Assembly: GCA_030950395.1 (NCBI GenBank)
Contig: JAUZRP010000051.1
Span: 1-34,582 of the forward strand
Source: Desulfonauticus sp.
GTDB lineage: Bacteria; Desulfobacterota; Desulfovibrionia; Desulfovibrionales; Desulfonatronovibrionaceae
Direction of reading: 5' to 3'
Length of the DNA: 34,582 nt
Shown here: positions 2,731 to 20,740 of the stretch, one piece after another
Position numbering within the stretch: position 1 is the stretch's first letter
Layout: each line of letters starts with the position of its first letter
Notes under the pieces: model-generated
Databases searched by the model: none
The model's input: only the letters and a program-made list of their open reading frames with translations
What the model was told of the DNA's origin: nothing
Made by a program: the position numbers and the translations under genes

Positions 2731-2908
2731 AAAAAAAGAAAAATGGAAAACATTGGAAAAATAATATTTACTTTGCTTGTCCGTTCAGAAAAACAGCAGG
2801 ATGACTTTTTGGCCGAAAGTATATGTTTATTTTTGCTTGTTTTGTTTATTTTTTCAGTCTGTTATATTTTATATTTTCTTCTTTTTAGAAACAACAAATA
2901 GGGGAAAA

Positions 2909-3523
2909 ATGCTTGTTCCAACTAGAAAAAATACAAAAAATATAATGAGTATTCCTGGAGCAATCCCTGATCATTTGACTGAGGACGAGATAAACAGGCT
3001 TACTGCTGCATACCAGGACTGGTTTGACTCCAGGCCTACCAGGAGCAGAGCCAGGCATTGGGTAATATTCCTTTTGCTAAGATATACTGGAGCGAGAGTA
3101 AGCGAGATATTGCAGCTTGATGATACCAGGGATATTGATTTCAGGAACGGAGAGGTAATAATAAACACAATGAAGAGGAGAGCAAAAGCAAGGAGAAATG
3201 TGCCTATTCCTTCAAACGTGGTAGCAGAAATAGGAAGGATACTTGCCACTTTTCCAGATCTAAGAGGAGAGCTCACAAGAATCTCCAGGATTGCGGTGTT
3301 TAATTGCTTCCAGAAGAGGGCAGAAGAGGCAGGATTACCAAAACAATTAAGGCATCCACACGTTTTACGGCATACAAGGGCAATTGAATTGCTTAGATCT
3401 GGTGTTCCCGTAACAGGAGTTCAACAGATCTTAGGCCATACGGACATCTCAACCACTGCTATTTATTTGCAGCTCTCAGGAACGGAAATAAAGCAGATTA
3501 TGCGGGACAGAGGGCTGATCTGA
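2909..3523 (+). CDS. Minimal tyrosine recombinase (catalytic domain only)
   Basis: The 204-aa product has all signature residues of a phage/Xer-type integrase catalytic domain: Arg63 in TGARVSEIL, Lys89 in the beta-hairpin TMKRR, H151-V-L-R154, His177 in LGHTDISTT and nucleophile Tyr186. The start at ATG 2909 follows AATAGGGG. The open frame extends upstream to a TTG at 2777, but that part is T-rich low-complexity sequence without recombinase similarity. There is therefore no N-terminal SAM-like core-binding domain (normally about 100 residues), unusual for an active enzyme. Arg codons are nearly all AGA/AGG, unlike the core genes to the right. It may be a domain-reduced active recombinase, may work with a partner, or may be a relic. 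Confidence 0.8.
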   Translation: MLVPTRKNTKNIMSIPGAIPDHLTEDEINRLTAAYQDWFDSRPTRSRARHWVIFLLLRYTGARVSEILQLDDTRDIDFRNGEVIINTMKRRAKARRNVPIPSNVVAEIGRILATFPDLRGELTRISRIAVFNCFQKRAEEAGLPKQLRHPHVLRHTRAIELLRSGVPVTGVQQILGHTDISTTAIYLQLSGTEIKQIMRDRGLI

Positions 3524-4368: not shown

Positions 4369-4394
4369 GGCCCCTGTATGGGGCCATTTTTTTA
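4369..4394 (+). terminator. GGCCCC/GGGGCC hairpin between the antitoxin and the secreted paralogue
   Basis: GGCCCC (4369-4374), loop TGTAT, GGGGCC (4380-4385), then ATTTTTTTATT on the plus strand. Both flanking genes run on the minus strand, where the hairpin separates the 4392 gene from the toxin-antitoxin pair and may attenuate read-through. The T run faces the plus direction. Confidence 0.5.
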
Positions 4395-4829
4395 TTCCTT
4401 ATCCTTATTCAGCAAGCAAAGGGCAGCATCGGGGACAAAAGAAAAGACGTATTTGTCAGTGTATAATACAAGCGTAGTTCCGTCCAGATATTTAATTCCT
4501 AATCCATTCCTTTCAATCACTTTTCCGTCGTCCTCTTCAAATAAGAATTCCAGATTTAAATTACCTTTAATGAGTAAATAGAGAAATTTTTTATTAGGAA
4601 AATCATAATAGAGAGAATCATACTCTGTCTTTACCACTTCATCCGTTGCAAGGTCAAGGACAGTTACCATTCCTCCATGGTGCATCACAGCTGCCAGCTG
4701 ATCAAGGGTGAGCTCTTCGTTAGGATACGCATACAGTAGATCATTACCAAACAACAAAGTCTTTGCGTTCACAGGGTTAAACGCACCAAACAAAGCAATC
4801 AAAGCAAGGGAAAAAATAATCTTTTTCAT
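4392..4829 (-). CDS. Secreted protein, paralogue of the 1623-2042 lipoprotein
   Basis: This 145-aa protein has a Sec signal peptide (MKKIIFSLALIALFGAF, cleavage probably after PVNA) but no lipobox, unlike its paralogue. The mature part shares the paralogue's LDQLAAVM/GGMVTVLD/EVVKTEY/LGIKYLD/YVFSFVP blocks in order. The signal peptides share only the opening MKKIIF, so localisation has diverged: one is membrane-anchored and this one is soluble in the periplasm or exported. Start support comes from AAAGGGGGTAT before the ATG. No named family is recognised. Confidence 0.75.
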   Translation of the reverse strand: MKKIIFSLALIALFGAFNPVNAKTLLFGNDLLYAYPNEELTLDQLAAVMHHGGMVTVLDLATDEVVKTEYDSLYYDFPNKKFLYLLIKGNLNLEFLFEEDDGKVIERNGLGIKYLDGTTLVLYTDKYVFSFVPDAALCLLNKDKE

Positions 4830-5001: not shown

Positions 5002-6150
5002 TCAGACTACTCCGAGGAATTTTTCCCACCATTCAAGAAGTTGCCTTCTTTCTTCCAAGAAATCACTCCTCATGTAGGCTCTTGTAACTTTTGTCCCGAT
5101 GACATGCGCAAGTTGCGTTTCAATCACCTCAGCTCCAAAGCCATGTTCTGGTTGTTTTAAATAGCAAAGCGTAGAAAAAGAACTCCTGAAACCGTGTGGT
5201 TGGTGATTAAAGACCCCTAACCTTTTCAACAGCACTATAAAAACACTTTCCGACAACGGCCTGGAAGGATGGGAAGGGGAGTAGAAAACGTATTGAGATT
5301 TTTTAATTTTTTCAGCCTGTTGGAGAATGGAAAGGGTATTTTTTGTTAGAGGCAATCTAAAATCTTTCTTTGTTTTCATATAGTTAGCAGGAATTGCAAA
5401 AATATTATTTTTTTTATCCAACCAGCTCCACTGTAAATTTCTTACGTTGCCAGAACGTAGGCCAGTTAAAATGAGGAATTTTAAGGCAAGATGAACGGTG
5501 GGATAAACACCTTCAAGTTCAAAGAGAGCTTTTACCATATCTTTAAATTTTTTCTCATCCGTTATGGCTTTTATATGCTTAGGTTCAACACGGGGAAGTA
5601 TTTCCTGTATATCTATATTGTTACAAATATTATATTTAGTATAATCTTTATTAACCGCATATCGTAAAATTTGTTGGATTAAAAAGAATATTTTCCGTCT
5701 CAGCTCTATTTTGGGACCTGGCTTTGGAGATAAATTTCTTTTAAGCACGTTTTCAAGAACAAGATTAACATCTTGCTTAGTTATTTCGTCTATTCTTTTT
5801 TGTCCAATAATATCAAATACATAGTTTTCCAGTTTTGCCTTTTGTCCGACGAAATGGCTTTCCTTCCATTCTTGTCTCTTTATTTGCAAAAATTCTATTG
5901 CAACCTCTTTAAATCTTTTAACAATTATGCCGTCTTGTCTTATTTTTGTTTTGATTTCCAGGGTTTGTTTGCGAGCTTCCAGGAGGGAGATAAGAGGATA
6001 TTCGCCCAGGGTTATCGTCCTATTTTTTATTTTTATCCGCCATATCTTTTTGCCACTTGGCCTTATCTCCAGATAAAGGCCATAAGAATCGAAAATTTTA
6101 TAGGGCTTTTCTTTTGGTTTTGTATTTTTTATCTTTACGTTCGTTAACAT
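5002..6150 (-). CDS. P4-type tyrosine integrase of a genomic island
   Basis: This 382-aa integrase has the full P4 layout. An N-terminal arm-binding domain (residues 1-75: KIFDSYGLYLEIRPSGKKIW, ITLGEYP...LLEAR) is followed by a core-binding domain (about 80-180) and a catalytic domain with Arg232 in TGLRSGNV, a Lys near 259-262, H319-G-F-R322, His349 and nucleophile Tyr359. Length is normal for the family and no frameshift is seen, so it may be active. It is transcribed away from a tRNA-Ala gene 410 bp upstream, the usual layout for islands integrated at a tRNA 3' end. Large direct repeats in the gap could be its arm sites. Confidence 0.93.
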   Translation of the reverse strand: MLTNVKIKNTKPKEKPYKIFDSYGLYLEIRPSGKKIWRIKIKNRTITLGEYPLISLLEARKQTLEIKTKIRQDGIIVKRFKEVAIEFLQIKRQEWKESHFVGQKAKLENYVFDIIGQKRIDEITKQDVNLVLENVLKRNLSPKPGPKIELRRKIFFLIQQILRYAVNKDYTKYNICNNIDIQEILPRVEPKHIKAITDEKKFKDMVKALFELEGVYPTVHLALKFLILTGLRSGNVRNLQWSWLDKKNNIFAIPANYMKTKKDFRLPLTKNTLSILQQAEKIKKSQYVFYSPSHPSRPLSESVFIVLLKRLGVFNHQPHGFRSSFSTLCYLKQPEHGFGAEVIETQLAHVIGTKVTRAYMRSDFLEERRQLLEWWEKFLGVV

Positions 6151-11643: not shown

Positions 11644-11672
11644 TGTAACTTTTGGCGGAATTAATTCGTATA
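11644..11672 (+). promoter_or_regulatory. Candidate ECF-sigma promoter of the envelope operon
   Basis: TGTAAC (11644-11649), 17 nt, CGTATA (11667-11672). This closely matches the AAC -35 / CGTA -10 architecture of ECF sigma factors such as B. subtilis SigW (TGAAAC-N16-CGTA). It lies about 70 bp before the first gene of an operon that encodes its own ECF sigma, so autoregulation is a natural reading. The rest of the 11449-11738 intergenic stretch is AT-rich with no other clear signal. Confidence 0.5.
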
Positions 11673-11738: not shown

Positions 11739-12506
11739 ATGAGCAAAAACACGTCTAGGGTCCAAAAACTTGGCTTGCTTACAAGTGTGGTGTGTTTGGG
11801 CGCAATGCTTGCTTTCACACCTGTAGCCAAAGCTGCTGATGATGCTGTCACCACTGACACAGCGGTAACTACCGACACTATAACCACCACAACTACCACT
11901 ACCGCAGACGAGCTTAGCACGGCCGTGGATGAAGCCCAAACTGCAGCAACAGAATTAGAGCAGGCAGAGCTGCAAAACGACCAACAACTAAGATTACGCC
12001 TTAGAGAACGTTACAGAAGGGCAGAAAAACATGCAGAACAAGTTATGGCCAAGATCGCTGGTGTAAAAACAGAAGATATTGCTGCTATGCGCCAACAAGG
12101 TCTTGGGTGGGGGCAAATAGCCCAAGAACTGGGTCTAGATACACAGGCTCTTGGTTTAGAAAATAGAAAAAATGAGCCTGTCAAAGTTCAAAATCAAGTA
12201 AGAAATCAAGGTCAAGAAACGATGTTGCAGGTAAGAGAAAGAACCATGGAAATGAACGAGAGAATGGAAGCCACAGCTAGAGATCTTACGGGAGAATTCA
12301 ACAAACATGGTTTAGCCACAGGTGGTTCTGATAGTGAATGCTTGGGATTACATAGCCCTGCTGCAGTGGCTGGCCGTGAGAGTGGATACGGCGGATATGG
12401 CAATAATGAAGGCCGCGGCAATGGCGGCACTGGTGGTTCTGGTGGCGAAGCTGGCGGCGGAGCTGGTGGTTCTGGCGGCGGGCATGGCGGCGGTGGACAC
12501 CGTTAA
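11739..12506 (+). CDS. Secreted protein with helical middle and Gly-rich tail
   Basis: The 255-aa product starts behind AAAGGAGGAGG. Residues 1-32 are a Sec signal (cleavage after AKA). They are followed by a Thr/Asp-rich linker (33-57), a charged helical stretch (58-105), a compact segment GVKTEDIAAMRQQGLGWGQIAQELGLD (107-133) and a second charged helix (145-188). The tail from about 213 is a Gly/Ser/His-rich sequence ending GGHGGGGHR. No enzyme motif is visible. The flexible His/Gly tail could bind metal or surfaces; that is conjecture. It is the first gene of the operon that encodes the ECF sigma and membrane regulator, so it is a likely abundant target of that sigma. Confidence 0.75.
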   Translation: MSKNTSRVQKLGLLTSVVCLGAMLAFTPVAKAADDAVTTDTAVTTDTITTTTTTTADELSTAVDEAQTAATELEQAELQNDQQLRLRLRERYRRAEKHAEQVMAKIAGVKTEDIAAMRQQGLGWGQIAQELGLDTQALGLENRKNEPVKVQNQVRNQGQETMLQVRERTMEMNERMEATARDLTGEFNKHGLATGGSDSECLGLHSPAAVAGRESGYGGYGNNEGRGNGGTGGSGGEAGGGAGGSGGGHGGGGHR

Positions 12507-12536
12507 AATTTAAGTTTAAAATATAACTCTATATTT

Positions 12537-13085
12537 ATGCACGCTACTGAGGAACAGGAAATAATAAAAAGAGTGTTAAACGGGGATACCAATGCCTTTG
12601 GTATCCTCGTTAAAACATATCAACGTCCCATTTTTAATTTAATGTACAGAATGACCAACTCCAATGACGAAGCAGCAGAATTAACTCAAGAAGTTTTTAT
12701 AAAAGCTTATGAAAAATTAGAAAAATTTAAATTGGGGAAAAAATTTTTCCCATGGTTATATGCTTTGGGTCTAAATATAGCTAAAGATTATTGGCGAAAA
12801 AAACAACGTTATTGTGAAGTAGAAGTAAATAATATCTCGAATAGTAAACAAATAGCCAGAGAAGATAAGTTAGAAACATCGTATGATTATCAAAAGCTAC
12901 AACAAGCTTTAAAAAATATACCTTTACTTTACCGAGAAGCCATTATTTTACGTTATCATGAAAATATGTCTTTAAAAGATATTGCCGATGCTTTACAAAT
13001 TTCCCTTAGTGCAGCTAAAATGCGCGTAAAACGTGGGTTAGAGATGCTCCGTAAAGAGCTTAAAGGAGGTGAATCCTATGTTTAA
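12537..13085 (+). CDS. ECF-type RNA polymerase sigma factor
   Basis: This 182-aa protein has region 2 (residues 10-80: AFGILVKTYQRPIFNLMYRMTN, DEAAELTQEVFIKAYEKL, FFPWLYALGLNIAKDYWRKK) and region 4 (about 118-175: LQQALKNIPLLYREAIILRYHENMSLKDIADALQIS...AKMRVKRG), with nothing between, as in ECF sigmas. It should direct RNA polymerase to TGTAAC/CGTATA-like promoters; one lies upstream of the operon. The ATG at 12537 lacks a clear ribosome site, so coupling to the upstream gene (30 bp) is possible. Its end overlaps the next gene by 8 nt, typical of a sigma/anti-sigma pair. Confidence 0.93.
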   Translation: MHATEEQEIIKRVLNGDTNAFGILVKTYQRPIFNLMYRMTNSNDEAAELTQEVFIKAYEKLEKFKLGKKFFPWLYALGLNIAKDYWRKKQRYCEVEVNNISNSKQIAREDKLETSYDYQKLQQALKNIPLLYREAIILRYHENMSLKDIADALQISLSAAKMRVKRGLEMLRKELKGGESYV

Positions 13086-13686
13086 AATATTTTCTCTTTG
13101 GCCACCAGAGAAAAAAAATAACGAACTAGATAGCAATCAAGACCAAGAACTCTTGATTTTAGCCAGGAGATTAAAAAATTTACCAGACAGAGAACCTCCT
13201 TCTGACTTGGCTGACAAAATTATCCAATCCCTGGAGCCTAAAAAACTTTCTTTTTGGAAAAAATTATACGTCTGGCTCATTACTCCAAAAGCTATTACTA
13301 TCTCTCCTTTAAAACTCGCACCTGCTTTGGCTTTATCTTTGCTACTTATCTGGCTTGCCTTTGGTAATTTTTTCTCTGGAAGCCAAGTGTTTAAAAATAC
13401 ACAAAAACTCGTACCTGTTACTTTTGTTTTGCACTACCCCCAAGCCCACTCTGTAAGTGTTATTGGTTCTTTTAACCAATGGCAACCTAAGGCATTGAAA
13501 ATGCACAACAAAAATGGTACATGGACGTTAGAAATAAAACTTCCTCAAGGACGTTATGAATATGCCTTTCTAATAGACAACAAATTGGTTATACCTGATC
13601 CTAAGGCAGAATTTTGTAAAGCTGACTTGTTTGGACATAAAAACTCTATTATATTTGTGAACCATGAAAATCCACATAATATCTAA
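13078..13686 (+). CDS. Membrane anti-sigma-like protein with periplasmic CBM48-like domain
   Basis: The product is 202 aa from ATG 13078, chosen because AAAGGAGG ends 8 nt upstream. Residues 1-65 form a cytoplasmic part with LPDREPPSDLADKIIQSL, a pattern common in anti-sigma factors, but without the zinc HxxxCxxC motif. About 80-98 is a single membrane span. Residues 112-195 are an early-set/CBM48 fold like the AMPK glycogen-binding domain: VTFVLHYPQAHSVSVIGSFNQW, GTWTLEIKLPQGRYEYAFLIDNKLVIPDP, with Trp135 and Trp149. By position it should hold the co-encoded sigma at the membrane and sense something outside, plausibly a glycan. Ligand and release mechanism are unknown. Confidence 0.85.
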   Translation: MFKIFSLWPPEKKNNELDSNQDQELLILARRLKNLPDREPPSDLADKIIQSLEPKKLSFWKKLYVWLITPKAITISPLKLAPALALSLLLIWLAFGNFFSGSQVFKNTQKLVPVTFVLHYPQAHSVSVIGSFNQWQPKALKMHNKNGTWTLEIKLPQGRYEYAFLIDNKLVIPDPKAEFCKADLFGHKNSIIFVNHENPHNI

Positions 13687-14461
13687 AATCCATTGTGTTG
13701 TTTTGTTATTTACCTTTACTACCTTAATAGGCAATGGTTTATCACCTACGTGGGCCAAAGAGTGCAGTTATTACAACAACGCCTCAATTTCTAAAACTAC
13801 AAACCAGTTGCCTCTGTGGGCAACAAACAAATTAAATACCCTTGGGGAAAATTACCGCATCTCTGCAGAAGGGCGAAAACGTTTGCTTCAGGTCTTGTTA
13901 ATGGCTCAACACAAGCAAGTGTCTCTATCTCTTTTAATAAGCAAAATAGAAGAAGGCTTGGCCAAAAAAGTGCCTCCCCAAATCATAGCTCAAGCCTTAT
14001 TAAAAGAAATAGATAATTATTGCTATGTAAGAAACTTATTAAAAACATTTTTCTCTTGTGCTCCAGAAAAATTAATTTCCAACAAAGTGGTAAAAACTAT
14101 AGTAGATAGTCTCAGTCTAGGGTTATCCAGAAAAGAGTTGGCCCAATTTATAAAATCCGCCCCCATAGCCCCCTTATCCATGCTGGCCATAGCTATAGAA
14201 AATTTGGCTCTTTTAAAACAGATCCATTTTAATCCAGATATGGCCAAACAAATCATGTTTACAGGGCTACGCTATAAAAGTTTTTCCTCTGACTGGCGTT
14301 ATGTGGCCAAAATAATTGCATTAGCCAAAAAAAGAAACCTATCAGATAAACAAATAACCAAAGCTGCTCTCCAGATTTTGCGTCACAAACAGCACTTAAA
14401 CAAGTTAATGGAATTGCTCGGATTTACTAGCCGTAACTTGCAACAAAACCAATTTAGATAA
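13664..14461 (+). CDS. Secreted helical protein of unknown function
   Basis: This 265-aa protein has a signal peptide (residues 1 to about 31, ending PTWA) and a mature part made of short amphipathic helices, including SLLISKIEEGLAKKVPPQIIAQALLKEI and later SLSLGLSRKELAQFI and KKRNLSDKQITKAALQIL. The recurring pattern of a helix with (K/R)xxxPxxIxxAL suggests repeated helical hairpins. I do not recognise a family. Its ATG lies 23 nt inside the end of the preceding gene, so translation is coupled to the sigma regulator. It ends the four-gene envelope operon. Confidence 0.75.
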   Translation: MKIHIISKIHCVVLLFTFTTLIGNGLSPTWAKECSYYNNASISKTTNQLPLWATNKLNTLGENYRISAEGRKRLLQVLLMAQHKQVSLSLLISKIEEGLAKKVPPQIIAQALLKEIDNYCYVRNLLKTFFSCAPEKLISNKVVKTIVDSLSLGLSRKELAQFIKSAPIAPLSMLAIAIENLALLKQIHFNPDMAKQIMFTGLRYKSFSSDWRYVAKIIALAKKRNLSDKQITKAALQILRHKQHLNKLMELLGFTSRNLQQNQFR

Positions 14462-14574: not shown

Positions 14575-15525
14575 ATGAAACGCTGGTGGCTATTTTTGTT
14601 GATAGGTTTATTATTGCTTAGTGGATGTTTACCTAACGGCAAAATGTTTTTGGCCCAAGAACGTTACGCAGAAGGAATACGCATTTTTCAACCTATAGTC
14701 CAAAAACAACCCAACAATCCCAAGGCCAACTACTATCTAGGACGTTTTTATTTGGCTCAAAAAAAGGTGGAAAAAGCCATCCCTTATTTAAAACGTGCTG
14801 TCCAACTCGACCCCAATAAAGCAGAGTATCACTTTTGGCTTGGAGTTGCCTATTGGGCCGTGCGAAACTTTTCCAAAGAACGACAATGTTATTTACAAGC
14901 TTTACAGTTACAACCAAAATTCCTTCCAGCCCGTTTATATCTAGGACATAATTATTTTGACAGTGGAGAATGGAAAAAGGCATTAACTGCTTATAATGAA
15001 GTTTTAAAGCTTGCTCCCTATAATCCCGAAGCTCTCTATAACCGAGCCTTAGTGTTCCATAATTTAAAACAACCCCAAAAAGAGCTTCAAGCCTGGAAGA
15101 CCTATCTCAAATATTATCCTCGAGGAAGATGGGCTATAAAAGCTGTAGAACATCTAAATGCCCTAGGAGATTTTTCCTATCGTAACTTTCTCATTGGATA
15201 TAGACTTGTTCCTTTAAAAAGCATTACGTTTATCCCTGGAACAGATACAATTTCATCCCAAGCCAAATCTTCTTTAAATGTAATTGGAAATATCTTAAGT
15301 ATTAATAAAAGGATAGTCTTACGTATTGATGCTTACGTAGGGGGGAATATTAATCTGGCCCAACTTAGGGCAAAGGCAGTGAGGAAATTTTTATTGCAAC
15401 ACTTTCCAGAAATCGCTCAAGAGAGACTAAAATATAAGGCCTATGGCAAAGCTGAACGTATTCAAATCAAAAATAAAGAATACTATCTAGCAGAATCTAT
15501 AGATTTTGTTACTCTAAAAAGATAA
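14575..15525 (+). CDS. Lipoprotein with TPR repeats and an OmpA-like C-terminal domain
   Basis: The 316-aa product follows GAAGGAGGG. The signal MKRWWLFLLIGLLLLSGC carries lipobox LSGC (Cys18). Residues about 38-190 are tetratricopeptide repeats (PNNPKANYYLGRFYLAQ, DPNKAEYHFWLGVAYWAV, PKFLPARLYLGHNYFDSG, PYNPEALYNRALVFHNL). Residues about 210-316 resemble the OmpA peptidoglycan-binding domain (FIPGTDTISSQAKSSLNVIGNIL, LRIDAYVGG, LAQLRAKAVRKFLL, LKYKAYGKAE), although the usual GHTD motif is DAYV here. It probably anchors in a membrane, contacts peptidoglycan and offers a TPR scaffold. Confidence 0.85.
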   Translation: MKRWWLFLLIGLLLLSGCLPNGKMFLAQERYAEGIRIFQPIVQKQPNNPKANYYLGRFYLAQKKVEKAIPYLKRAVQLDPNKAEYHFWLGVAYWAVRNFSKERQCYLQALQLQPKFLPARLYLGHNYFDSGEWKKALTAYNEVLKLAPYNPEALYNRALVFHNLKQPQKELQAWKTYLKYYPRGRWAIKAVEHLNALGDFSYRNFLIGYRLVPLKSITFIPGTDTISSQAKSSLNVIGNILSINKRIVLRIDAYVGGNINLAQLRAKAVRKFLLQHFPEIAQERLKYKAYGKAERIQIKNKEYYLAESIDFVTLKR

Positions 15526-18575: not shown

Positions 18576-20603
18576 CTATACTACCAACTCTAAAGCCTTT
18601 TTCAACTCTCTAACCCAAACCACGTTTAAACTTGATTTTATACTCTTGGGGCAGGTGCTCCAATCTGATTTGTTTTTCTCTGGTAAAAGCACTGTTTCCA
18701 CTCCGGCCAACGCCGCGGCCATAAGTTTTTCTTTTATACCTCCCACCGGAAGTATCCTGCCCGTTAAGGTAATTTCGCCACTCATAGCTACTTTTCTCTT
18801 ACACGGTTTTTCCTGCAACAACGAATATAAAGCAGCCGCAATAGCCAAACCTGCAGAGGGACCATCTTTGGGGATTGCTCCTGCAGGCACGTGAATGTGC
18901 AAATCGTGTCTAGCAAAAAAATCTTCGGAAATTCCAAACTCACAAGCATTACTTTTAAAATAGCTTACAGCTGCTTGAGCAGATTCTTTTAAAATATTGC
19001 CCAAAGAGCCGGTTAAGATTAACTCGTTATCTCCTTTCATTTTAGTGGCTTCAACGAATAAAATTTCTCCTCCTGTAGGTGTCCAGGCCAAAGCCGTACT
19101 AACCCCAATTCTATCTATGGCTTCTAACATTACAGGCCTATATTTTGGTTGCCCAAGAAAGGCTTCAACTTTTTTTTCATCTATAATCATTTGTTTTATA
19201 GGAACAGTTGAAAGTAAAATTTCTTTAGCCACTTTCCTACAAATCGCCCCTATTTGCCTACTTAACCCTCGTAAACCTACTTCTTTGGTATAACCCTGAA
19301 TCAAATGTTGCAAAGCCGATCTGGTAAACTCTATCTGAAATTCCTCCAAGGCTGCCTCTTTTAAAGCTTTGGGTATAAGATATTTTAAAGCAATTTCTAC
19401 CTTTTCTTCATTGGTGTAACCACTTAAAGACAAAACTTCTAATCTGTCTAATAATGGCTCTGGAATGGTATCCAACGTATTAGCTGTAGCAATAAACATA
19501 ACTTTGGATAAATCAAATGCTACCTCTAAATAATGATCTACAAAATTTTTGTTTTGCTCTGGGTCTAACACTTCTAATAAAGAAGCCGCTGGATCACCCT
19601 TAAAGTCTTGTCCAATCTTGTCCAGTTCATCCAACATAAACACGGGGTTTTTTACACCACAACGCCTAATTTCTTGAATTATCCTGCCGGGCAACGCGCC
19701 TACATAACTTCGCCTGTGCCCTCTTATCTGAGATTCATCCCTTACTCCTGCCAAAGAAATACGCACAAATTTCCTGCCCAAACTCCTGGCAATAGAAGAA
19801 CCTAAAGAAGTCTTTCCTGTGCCTGGAGGACCCAAAAAACACAAAACCGGCCCCCTCGGATTTAGATACACCAGACGCTTATTTATAGCTTTTCTGACCG
19901 TATCCAAAACTTCGTTTAGCTGTAAGGGCTTGGACAAAAAAGTGTAAGAGCCCTTTTTTAGGGCAGAAACAGCTGTAGCTACCGTGGCATAGCCGGTAAT
20001 AATAATAACTTCTGTGCCCTTATCTTTGGCTTTAGCCGCATCTAAAACCTGAAAACCATCCACTTCCTGCATTTTTAAATCAGTAATCACCACATCATAA
20101 TTGTGCTCATTGATCTTGGAAATAGCCTCTTTCCCACTTAACGCATACTCAACCAGATATCCTTCCTTTTCTAAGACGTGTTGCAAATTTAAACAGGTCA
20201 GCTTCTCATCATCTACAACTAGAATTTCCACCTTTTTCTTGGCTCGAAGAAGTCTAACCGCTAAAAATTCTAAAATTCTATCTTTAACTTCACTTAGGCC
20301 ATAATGTTCTTCGTCCAGAATTGCTTTGGCTTCTTTTAAATCAAGATTATCCAAACTAACCTTATTCCAGGGCAGACTTAATAAATAATCTATATAATTG
20401 ACGCCAATGGTATATTCTGCCGACACTGTGCTTATGTAGCGTATTTTATCTATTTCTTTTAAAGCCACGTTGATTACCTGATGAGGTAAGTTTGCTTCCA
20501 GCACTTTTTGACGCAACTCTTTTAATTCCAGAGGCAAAGACTCCTCTTGTTGTTCGTTTTTTTCTACTTCGTCTTTTTCTTCCTTTTTTTTGCTAAAAAA
20601 CAT
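18576..20603 (-). CDS. Lon-type AAA+ protease with an inserted response-regulator receiver domain
   Basis: The product is 675 aa from ATG 20603, chosen because GGAGTG precedes it; an upstream ATG at 20621 would add 6 residues. Residues 1-123 are a charged tail plus the Lon helical segment (LPWNKVS, AKAILDEEHYGLSEVKDRILEFLAV). Residues about 124-247 are a complete receiver: D131-D132, phospho-acceptor D175 in ITDLKM, T203, K225. Then follow the AAA+ module (Walker A GPPGTGKT 258-265, Walker B VFMLDELDKIG) and the Lon protease domain with the Ser583/Lys626 dyad (PKDGPSAG; GGIKEKL). The normal N-terminal LAN substrate domain is absent. It is probably a phosphorylation-controlled protease of the cytoplasm; substrates are unknown. 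Confidence 0.93.
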   Translation of the reverse strand: MFFSKKKEEKDEVEKNEQQEESLPLELKELRQKVLEANLPHQVINVALKEIDKIRYISTVSAEYTIGVNYIDYLLSLPWNKVSLDNLDLKEAKAILDEEHYGLSEVKDRILEFLAVRLLRAKKKVEILVVDDEKLTCLNLQHVLEKEGYLVEYALSGKEAISKINEHNYDVVITDLKMQEVDGFQVLDAAKAKDKGTEVIIITGYATVATAVSALKKGSYTFLSKPLQLNEVLDTVRKAINKRLVYLNPRGPVLCFLGPPGTGKTSLGSSIARSLGRKFVRISLAGVRDESQIRGHRRSYVGALPGRIIQEIRRCGVKNPVFMLDELDKIGQDFKGDPAASLLEVLDPEQNKNFVDHYLEVAFDLSKVMFIATANTLDTIPEPLLDRLEVLSLSGYTNEEKVEIALKYLIPKALKEAALEEFQIEFTRSALQHLIQGYTKEVGLRGLSRQIGAICRKVAKEILLSTVPIKQMIIDEKKVEAFLGQPKYRPVMLEAIDRIGVSTALAWTPTGGEILFVEATKMKGDNELILTGSLGNILKESAQAAVSYFKSNACEFGISEDFFARHDLHIHVPAGAIPKDGPSAGLAIAAALYSLLQEKPCKRKVAMSGEITLTGRILPVGGIKEKLMAAALAGVETVLLPEKNKSDWSTCPKSIKSSLNVVWVRELKKALELVV

Positions 20604-20740
20604 TTTCACTCCAATAAACATTTCTTCATTATCTTTTCTAAACCGATTCTAGGACAACCCAACCAATATTTCATCTCTTTGAAACACTATCCTTAACACA
20701 ACCTTTTCTCAAAATCCAACCTAACCTATGTTACCAAAAT

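Follow-up and report, generated by a model that had tools for sequence, protein, structure and literature searches.

The window analysed here, a stretch of 34,582 nucleotides from Desulfonauticus sp., carries on its forward strand a cluster of genes that probably forms an autoregulated envelope-signalling module. An anti-sigma factor with a periplasmic CBM48 domain would hold an extracytoplasmic function (ECF) sigma factor and release it for the transcription of the cluster's own exported proteins. This reading draws on the protein domains, on the fold of the regulator, on a gene set and a promoter that are both conserved in other genomes, and on the near-restriction of the promoter to the cluster in several of them.

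Gene Content and Organization

An earlier sequence-only reading placed a four-gene operon at positions 11739-14461, and all four open reading frames are present as placed. The first gene, g1 (11739-12506), encodes a secreted protein of 255 aa with a signal peptide, a GWGQIAQELG motif and a Gly/His-rich tail, in which 26 Gly and 3 His are found among the last 55 residues. It is followed by the genes for the sigma factor (12537-13085), the regulator (13078-13686; 202 aa) and the protein here called hel (13664-14461), a secreted all-helical solenoid protein with a conserved KxxEGLAKxVPP motif. The sigma factor and regulator genes overlap by 8 bases and the regulator and hel genes by 23 bases. The four genes are thus real, but the unit comprises five, since a gene for a TPR-OmpA lipoprotein recognized by Pfam (14575-15525) comes next in the window and also follows hel in relatives (L003, L005, L006, L009, L055, L058, L060, L063, L072, L137 and L138). 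Orthologues of g1 lie 3' of the TPR gene in the last six of these loci, and 5' of the ECF gene, like in the window, in genome G005.

Genes 1, 3 and 5 have a strong Shine-Dalgarno sequence in front of them, which the sigma factor gene lacks; the regulator starts at the ATG (13078) located 3' of AAAGGAGGTGA. The difference between gene 1 and the sigma factor gene suggests that the g1 product is made in excess over the sigma factor. Scans for sigma-70 promoters and terminators gave hits at chance level only.

The two flanking secreted proteins were originally described as having no known family. This holds for Pfam and NCBIfam, where neither the helical KxxEGLAK family nor the GWGxIA Gly-tail family has an assigned function, but hel does belong to a family conserved across phyla. 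Pfam matches of the flanking proteins to RhoGAP, Gln-synt_C-ter and New_glue were below cut-off and were rejected. The model of hel is all-helical (pLDDT 87.5), and a search for relatives among solved structures returned none above background, the top rows being designed helical repeats (Z 9.2, rmsd 4.8, 144 residues).

Elsewhere in the window, two tyrosine recombinases of the phage integrase family (2777-3523, forward strand; 5002-6150, reverse strand) are encoded about 6-9 kb 5' of the operon, possibly marking an integrated element. On either side of the first of them lies a small ORF for a secreted protein or lipoprotein (1623-2042 and 4392-4829, both on the reverse strand); the two look alike, and neither belongs to a Pfam family. 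The ORF at 18576-20621 (reverse strand) encodes an unusual fusion, a Lon-type protease into which a response-regulator receiver domain (residues 133-242) has been inserted before the AAA domain.

The Sigma Factor and Its Regulator

The assignment of the second gene to the ECF sigma factors is borne out by Pfam (Sigma70_r2, 4.5e-16, 58.8 bits; Sigma70_r4_2, 2.6e-11, 43.4 bits) and NCBIfam (TIGR02937 sigma70-ECF, 92.4 bits), all three matches being above cut-off. With 182 aa and Sigma-70 regions 2 and 4 only, the product has the size and domain content of this class. SigW is its top-scoring subfamily model, yet the score lies below the cut-off of that model.

In the predicted structure, the regulator starts with a cytoplasmic part (residues 1-68; 13078-13281) containing helices at residues 19-33, 44-51 and 59-68, continues with a transmembrane helix (residues 80-99; 13315-13374) that is also apparent in the sequence, and ends in a beta sandwich. 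About six lysines within residues 52-79, ahead of the span, follow the positive-inside pattern. Model and lysines agree with the proposal that a single span separates an anti-sigma-like cytoplasmic segment from a CBM48 domain facing outward. An adjacent ECF gene, overlapping by a few bases, a membrane span and N-terminal helices predicted to be cytoplasmic make up the layout of anti-sigma factors with a class I domain (ASDI).

The zf-HC2 finger (Hx3Cx2C) is absent from the window regulator; it is optional in this class, as about 44% of ASDIs are without the zinc motif (PMC7406223). Of the NCBIfam anti-sigma models, none scored above cut-off on the window regulator, and no RsgI model was among its Pfam and NCBIfam matches, its partner being an ECF sigma factor rather than SigI. 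The anti-sigma reading is nevertheless well supported, because orthologues in L036, L038, L043, L044 and L048 join a zf-HC2 domain above the Pfam cut-off to an equivalent span and CBM48 domain. Given also a PPxxLxxxVM stretch that aligns across the window-type and zf-HC2-type regulators, and the frequency of zinc-less ASDIs, the family would consist of anti-sigma factors, and the window regulator would be a member in reduced form.

Conservation Across Genomes

Among 395 genomes from the phylum, profile searches matched the regulator in 106, a figure in which lone CBM48 proteins are included. No match was found in two genomes of the same genus nor in most of the family, the system being patchy in its distribution. 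A scan of named genomes located loci in Desulfarculaceae, Desulfatitalea, Pseudodesulfovibrio, Syntrophobacteraceae, Nitrospira, Gemmatimonadota and Bipolaricaulota. Conservation of gene order had been put forward as a check within Desulfovibrionales; the gene set is indeed conserved, but its spread is not confined to that group and covers several phyla.

By ORF calling and profiles of five proteins, 59 distinct loci with an ECF gene and a regulator gene were delineated. The two genes adjoin each other in nearly all loci, and a gene for the helical protein is present in 54 of the 59. Recurrence of the neighbours at this frequency in several phyla indicates an association beyond chance. Since the helical protein profile was iterated on the same loci that it was scored against, the weak matches, those of Bipolaricaulota at about 1e-15, are less certain, although a related EGLA motif is also visible there. 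On these profiles, the set of ECF sigma factor, CBM48 regulator and helical protein is conserved across Desulfobacterota and relatives, Nitrospira and Gemmatimonadota, and weakly so in Bipolaricaulota.

The loci come in two flavours. A second, stand-alone CBM48 protein adjoins the operon in 23 of the 59 loci, and in 21 of these 23 the helical protein carries a Gly-rich tail. In loci with TPR-OmpA and g1 genes, the helical protein is tail-less and the Gly tail is on g1. As the loci are mutually related, the split is to be taken as a pattern and not as a count of independent events.

Other genes were also seen next to the cluster. Multihaem cytochrome genes lie directly 3' of zf-HC2-type CBM48 anti-sigma genes (L189:6487-13001; L190:7172-8842), which may point to a connection with extracellular electron transfer in the lineage concerned. 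An alkaline phosphatase gene is located just 5' of the ECF gene in G255 (L188:3643-5322).

Promoter and Predicted Regulon

An ECF-type promoter, TGTAAC-N17-CGTAT (TGTAACTTTTGGCGGAATTAATTCGTAT; 11644-11671, forward strand), is found 95 bases 5' of g1. Most of the Desulfobacterota relatives have the consensus TGTRAC-N16/17-CGTATA, or a close variant of it, 5' of the operon. This conserved position ahead of the sigma factor's own operon points to autoregulation of the ECF type. Among 58 loci examined, 50 of them with at least 100 bases upstream, the promoter is near an operon gene start in 29, vs. 10 matches on 375 kb of the opposite strand; about two would be expected in the stretches searched, by our estimate. 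This pattern had no match in many loci of Nitrospira and Bipolaricaulota.

In the 2.2 Mb of the own genome, TGTRACN16-17CGTAT matches twice, once at 11644 and once within an ORF that runs on the opposite strand, and the reversed-pattern control gives 0 matches. Two strict matches were found in G044, ahead of the sigma factor and TPR-OmpA genes, and two in G022, near the same two genes. G028 and G060 have matches 38 bases before the start codons of the sigma factor and TPR-OmpA genes plus one extra match each, and G052 has two strict matches, one of them ahead of the sigma factor gene. Reversed-pattern controls gave 0 or 1 in these five genomes. A gene for a Gly/His-rich secreted protein stands behind an operon-type promoter in G106. 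By position, this protein and the small secreted RDGSC proteins of G336, G317 and G255 would be further targets. Ahead of the TPR gene of the window no promoter match was found; transcription of this gene may start at the upstream promoter. Two looser patterns were set aside: TGTRACCNN{12,14}YGTWWA did not rise above its reversed control, and TGTAACN{15,18}CGT was uninformative in the own genome (22 matches vs. 47 in the control).

The promoter being nearly restricted to the operon and the TPR-OmpA gene in several genomes, the regulon appears to consist mainly of the cluster's own secreted proteins. Of the two roles suggested for the flanking secreted proteins, output of the regulator or co-sensors, the promoter evidence supports the first.

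Genes for small secreted proteins that share a DGSC motif adjoin the operon at L185:6567-6890, L187:2673-3053, L188:8242-8685 and L062:5758-6159, in the first three loci behind a promoter of the operon's type.

The CBM48 Domain and Its Possible Ligands

The C-terminal part of the regulator (residues 112-197; 13411-13668), predicted to be periplasmic, matches Pfam AMPK1_CBM with 49.5 bits (cut-off 26.8) and CBM_48 with 37.1 bits. The regulator model, built on 47 sequences, has a pLDDT of 86, with mostly 93-98 in the CBM48 portion, and the top structural match of the domain is the CBM48 of AMPK beta (6c9j_B; Z 13.5, rmsd 1.7 Å, 87 residues, 25% identity). The domain is accordingly predicted to have the CBM48 fold, as had been claimed, and not that of an unrelated Ig-like module. 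CBM48 domains were said to be normally cytoplasmic. The outward placement is supported here, but extracellular CBM48 is not unique, as feruloyl esterases and BoGH13ASus of Bacteroides ovatus, which are secreted enzymes, are among the structure matches.

The glycogen-binding residues of AMPK beta, which we take to be W100, K126, W133, L146 and N150, are partly retained. W100 corresponds to W135 and N150 to N189 in the window regulator, L146 is replaced by F185, K126 by A163 and W133 by L170/V171. In the 47-row alignment the W133 equivalent is missing from nearly all rows of the window clade, with a Trp close by in L057, whereas the rows from Nitrospira, from Gemmatimonadota and of the zf-HC2 type retain it. 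The DGFG..NS loop and W135 are nearly invariant. Of the Trp ligand site that the sequence-only reading expected, the first tryptophan thus stands while the second is lost in the window clade.

In the mechanism that we propose, the single-span regulator would keep the sigma factor inactive, its cytoplasmic helices binding the sigma factor and its CBM48 domain lying in the periplasm. An envelope signal would act on the CBM48 domain, the ligand presumably being an envelope polymer or an exported protein. No neighbour is more constant than the helical protein, and a periplasmic co-regulator, in a position like that of RseB, is the role that would suit it best. The sigma factor would then be released, probably through regulated proteolysis, and, once free, it would transcribe from TGTRAC-N16/17-CGTATA both the operon that encodes it and the neighbouring genes for exported products, i.e., the Gly-rich protein and the TPR-OmpA lipoprotein.

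The signal may be a glycan or a protein, which we consider about equally likely. In the former case, the domain would bind an extracellular alpha-glucan or an envelope polysaccharide and directly trigger sigma factor release, as proposed for RsgI (PMC4711584). That precedent, the true CBM48 fold, the retained W135 and N189, the second Trp in most other lineages and the stand-alone CBM48 protein next to many operons make this conceivable. Our confidence in it stays limited: the window clade has lost the counterparts of K126 and W133, and neither the operon nor the predicted regulon shows any carbohydrate enzymes. The own genome also has only one partial GH13 match and no second CBM48 domain in its 2.2 Mb, an absence that is not absolute because the genome is about 97% complete. 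Alternatively, the fold might have been reused to bind hel or its Gly-rich tail, in which case the module would sense how its own product is exported or assembled, not a glycan. The constancy of hel, the overlap of its gene with the regulator gene, the Gly-rich tail found on either hel or g1, the regulon limited to the cluster and the loss of the second ligand Trp all fit this equally tentative explanation, whereas the near-invariance of W135 and the DGFG..NS loop could just as well be due to a glycan site. That the regulator is instead an unrelated membrane CBM48 protein merely located in the operon, the sigma factor being constitutive or otherwise regulated, is very unlikely: the short, zinc-less cytoplasmic part and the missing NCBIfam match count against the anti-sigma module, but orthologues carry zf-HC2 and the ECF gene adjoins in nearly all loci of several phyla.

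Comparison with Known Systems

To our knowledge, envelope signalling has been little studied in Desulfobacterota and Nitrospira. What the cluster provides for both groups is a specific pair of sigma and anti-sigma factors, together with a conserved promoter and a small number of secreted targets, and it ties one regulator to three exported families: the helical KxxEGLAK proteins, the GWGxIA Gly-tail proteins and the stand-alone CBM48 lipoproteins, the last of which have no known role. It also poses a testable question, namely whether an extracellular CBM48 fold reads a glycan or a protein. We tentatively suggest a cross-phylum class of ECF modules whose regulon would not extend beyond the cluster and in which CBM48 might have been turned, in bacteria without other CBM48 proteins, into a periplasmic sensor of their own Gly-rich and helical exports or of a non-glucan envelope polymer. 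CBM48 on an ECF anti-sigma factor is apparently undescribed in the papers searched; the main ECF reclassification lies outside that search and may list the group.

With AMPK beta the window regulator shares the fold and the equivalents of W100 and N150. The AMPK domain is cytoplasmic and kinase-bound, however, and retains the two residues that are missing here. In the RpoE-RseA-RseB system, the genes for the sigma factor, a single-span anti-sigma factor and a periplasmic protein follow each other in this order. The window resembles it in gene order and in the role proposed for the third of these genes; the differences are that RseA is without CBM48, that the fold of RseB is another one and that the RpoE regulon is large.

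Carbohydrate modules on sigma factor regulators are an already known idea (PMC4711584; PMC5826349). RsgI proteins of Clostridium thermocellum carry CBM3, CBM42, PA14 or GH10 modules, and the SigI/RsgI regulon comprises polysaccharide-degrading enzymes (PMC4711584). Similarly to what is predicted for the window, an outward carbohydrate-binding module is placed on a membrane anti-sigma factor, the sigma factor is autoregulated and the two are co-transcribed (PMC4711584). SigI is, however, not of the two-domain ECF type, the N-terminal domain of RsgI differs, its modules are not CBM48, and its regulon degrades polysaccharides while that predicted for the window consists of the cluster's own secreted proteins. 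In ECF52, e.g., SCO4117, an ECF sigma factor, zf-HC2, a span and an extracytoplasmic carbohydrate-binding module are joined in one fused protein (PMC5826349). The coupling of these parts is the same as in the CBM48 regulator family, but ECF52 is a single polypeptide, is found in Actinobacteria only and has a module of another family (smart00776).
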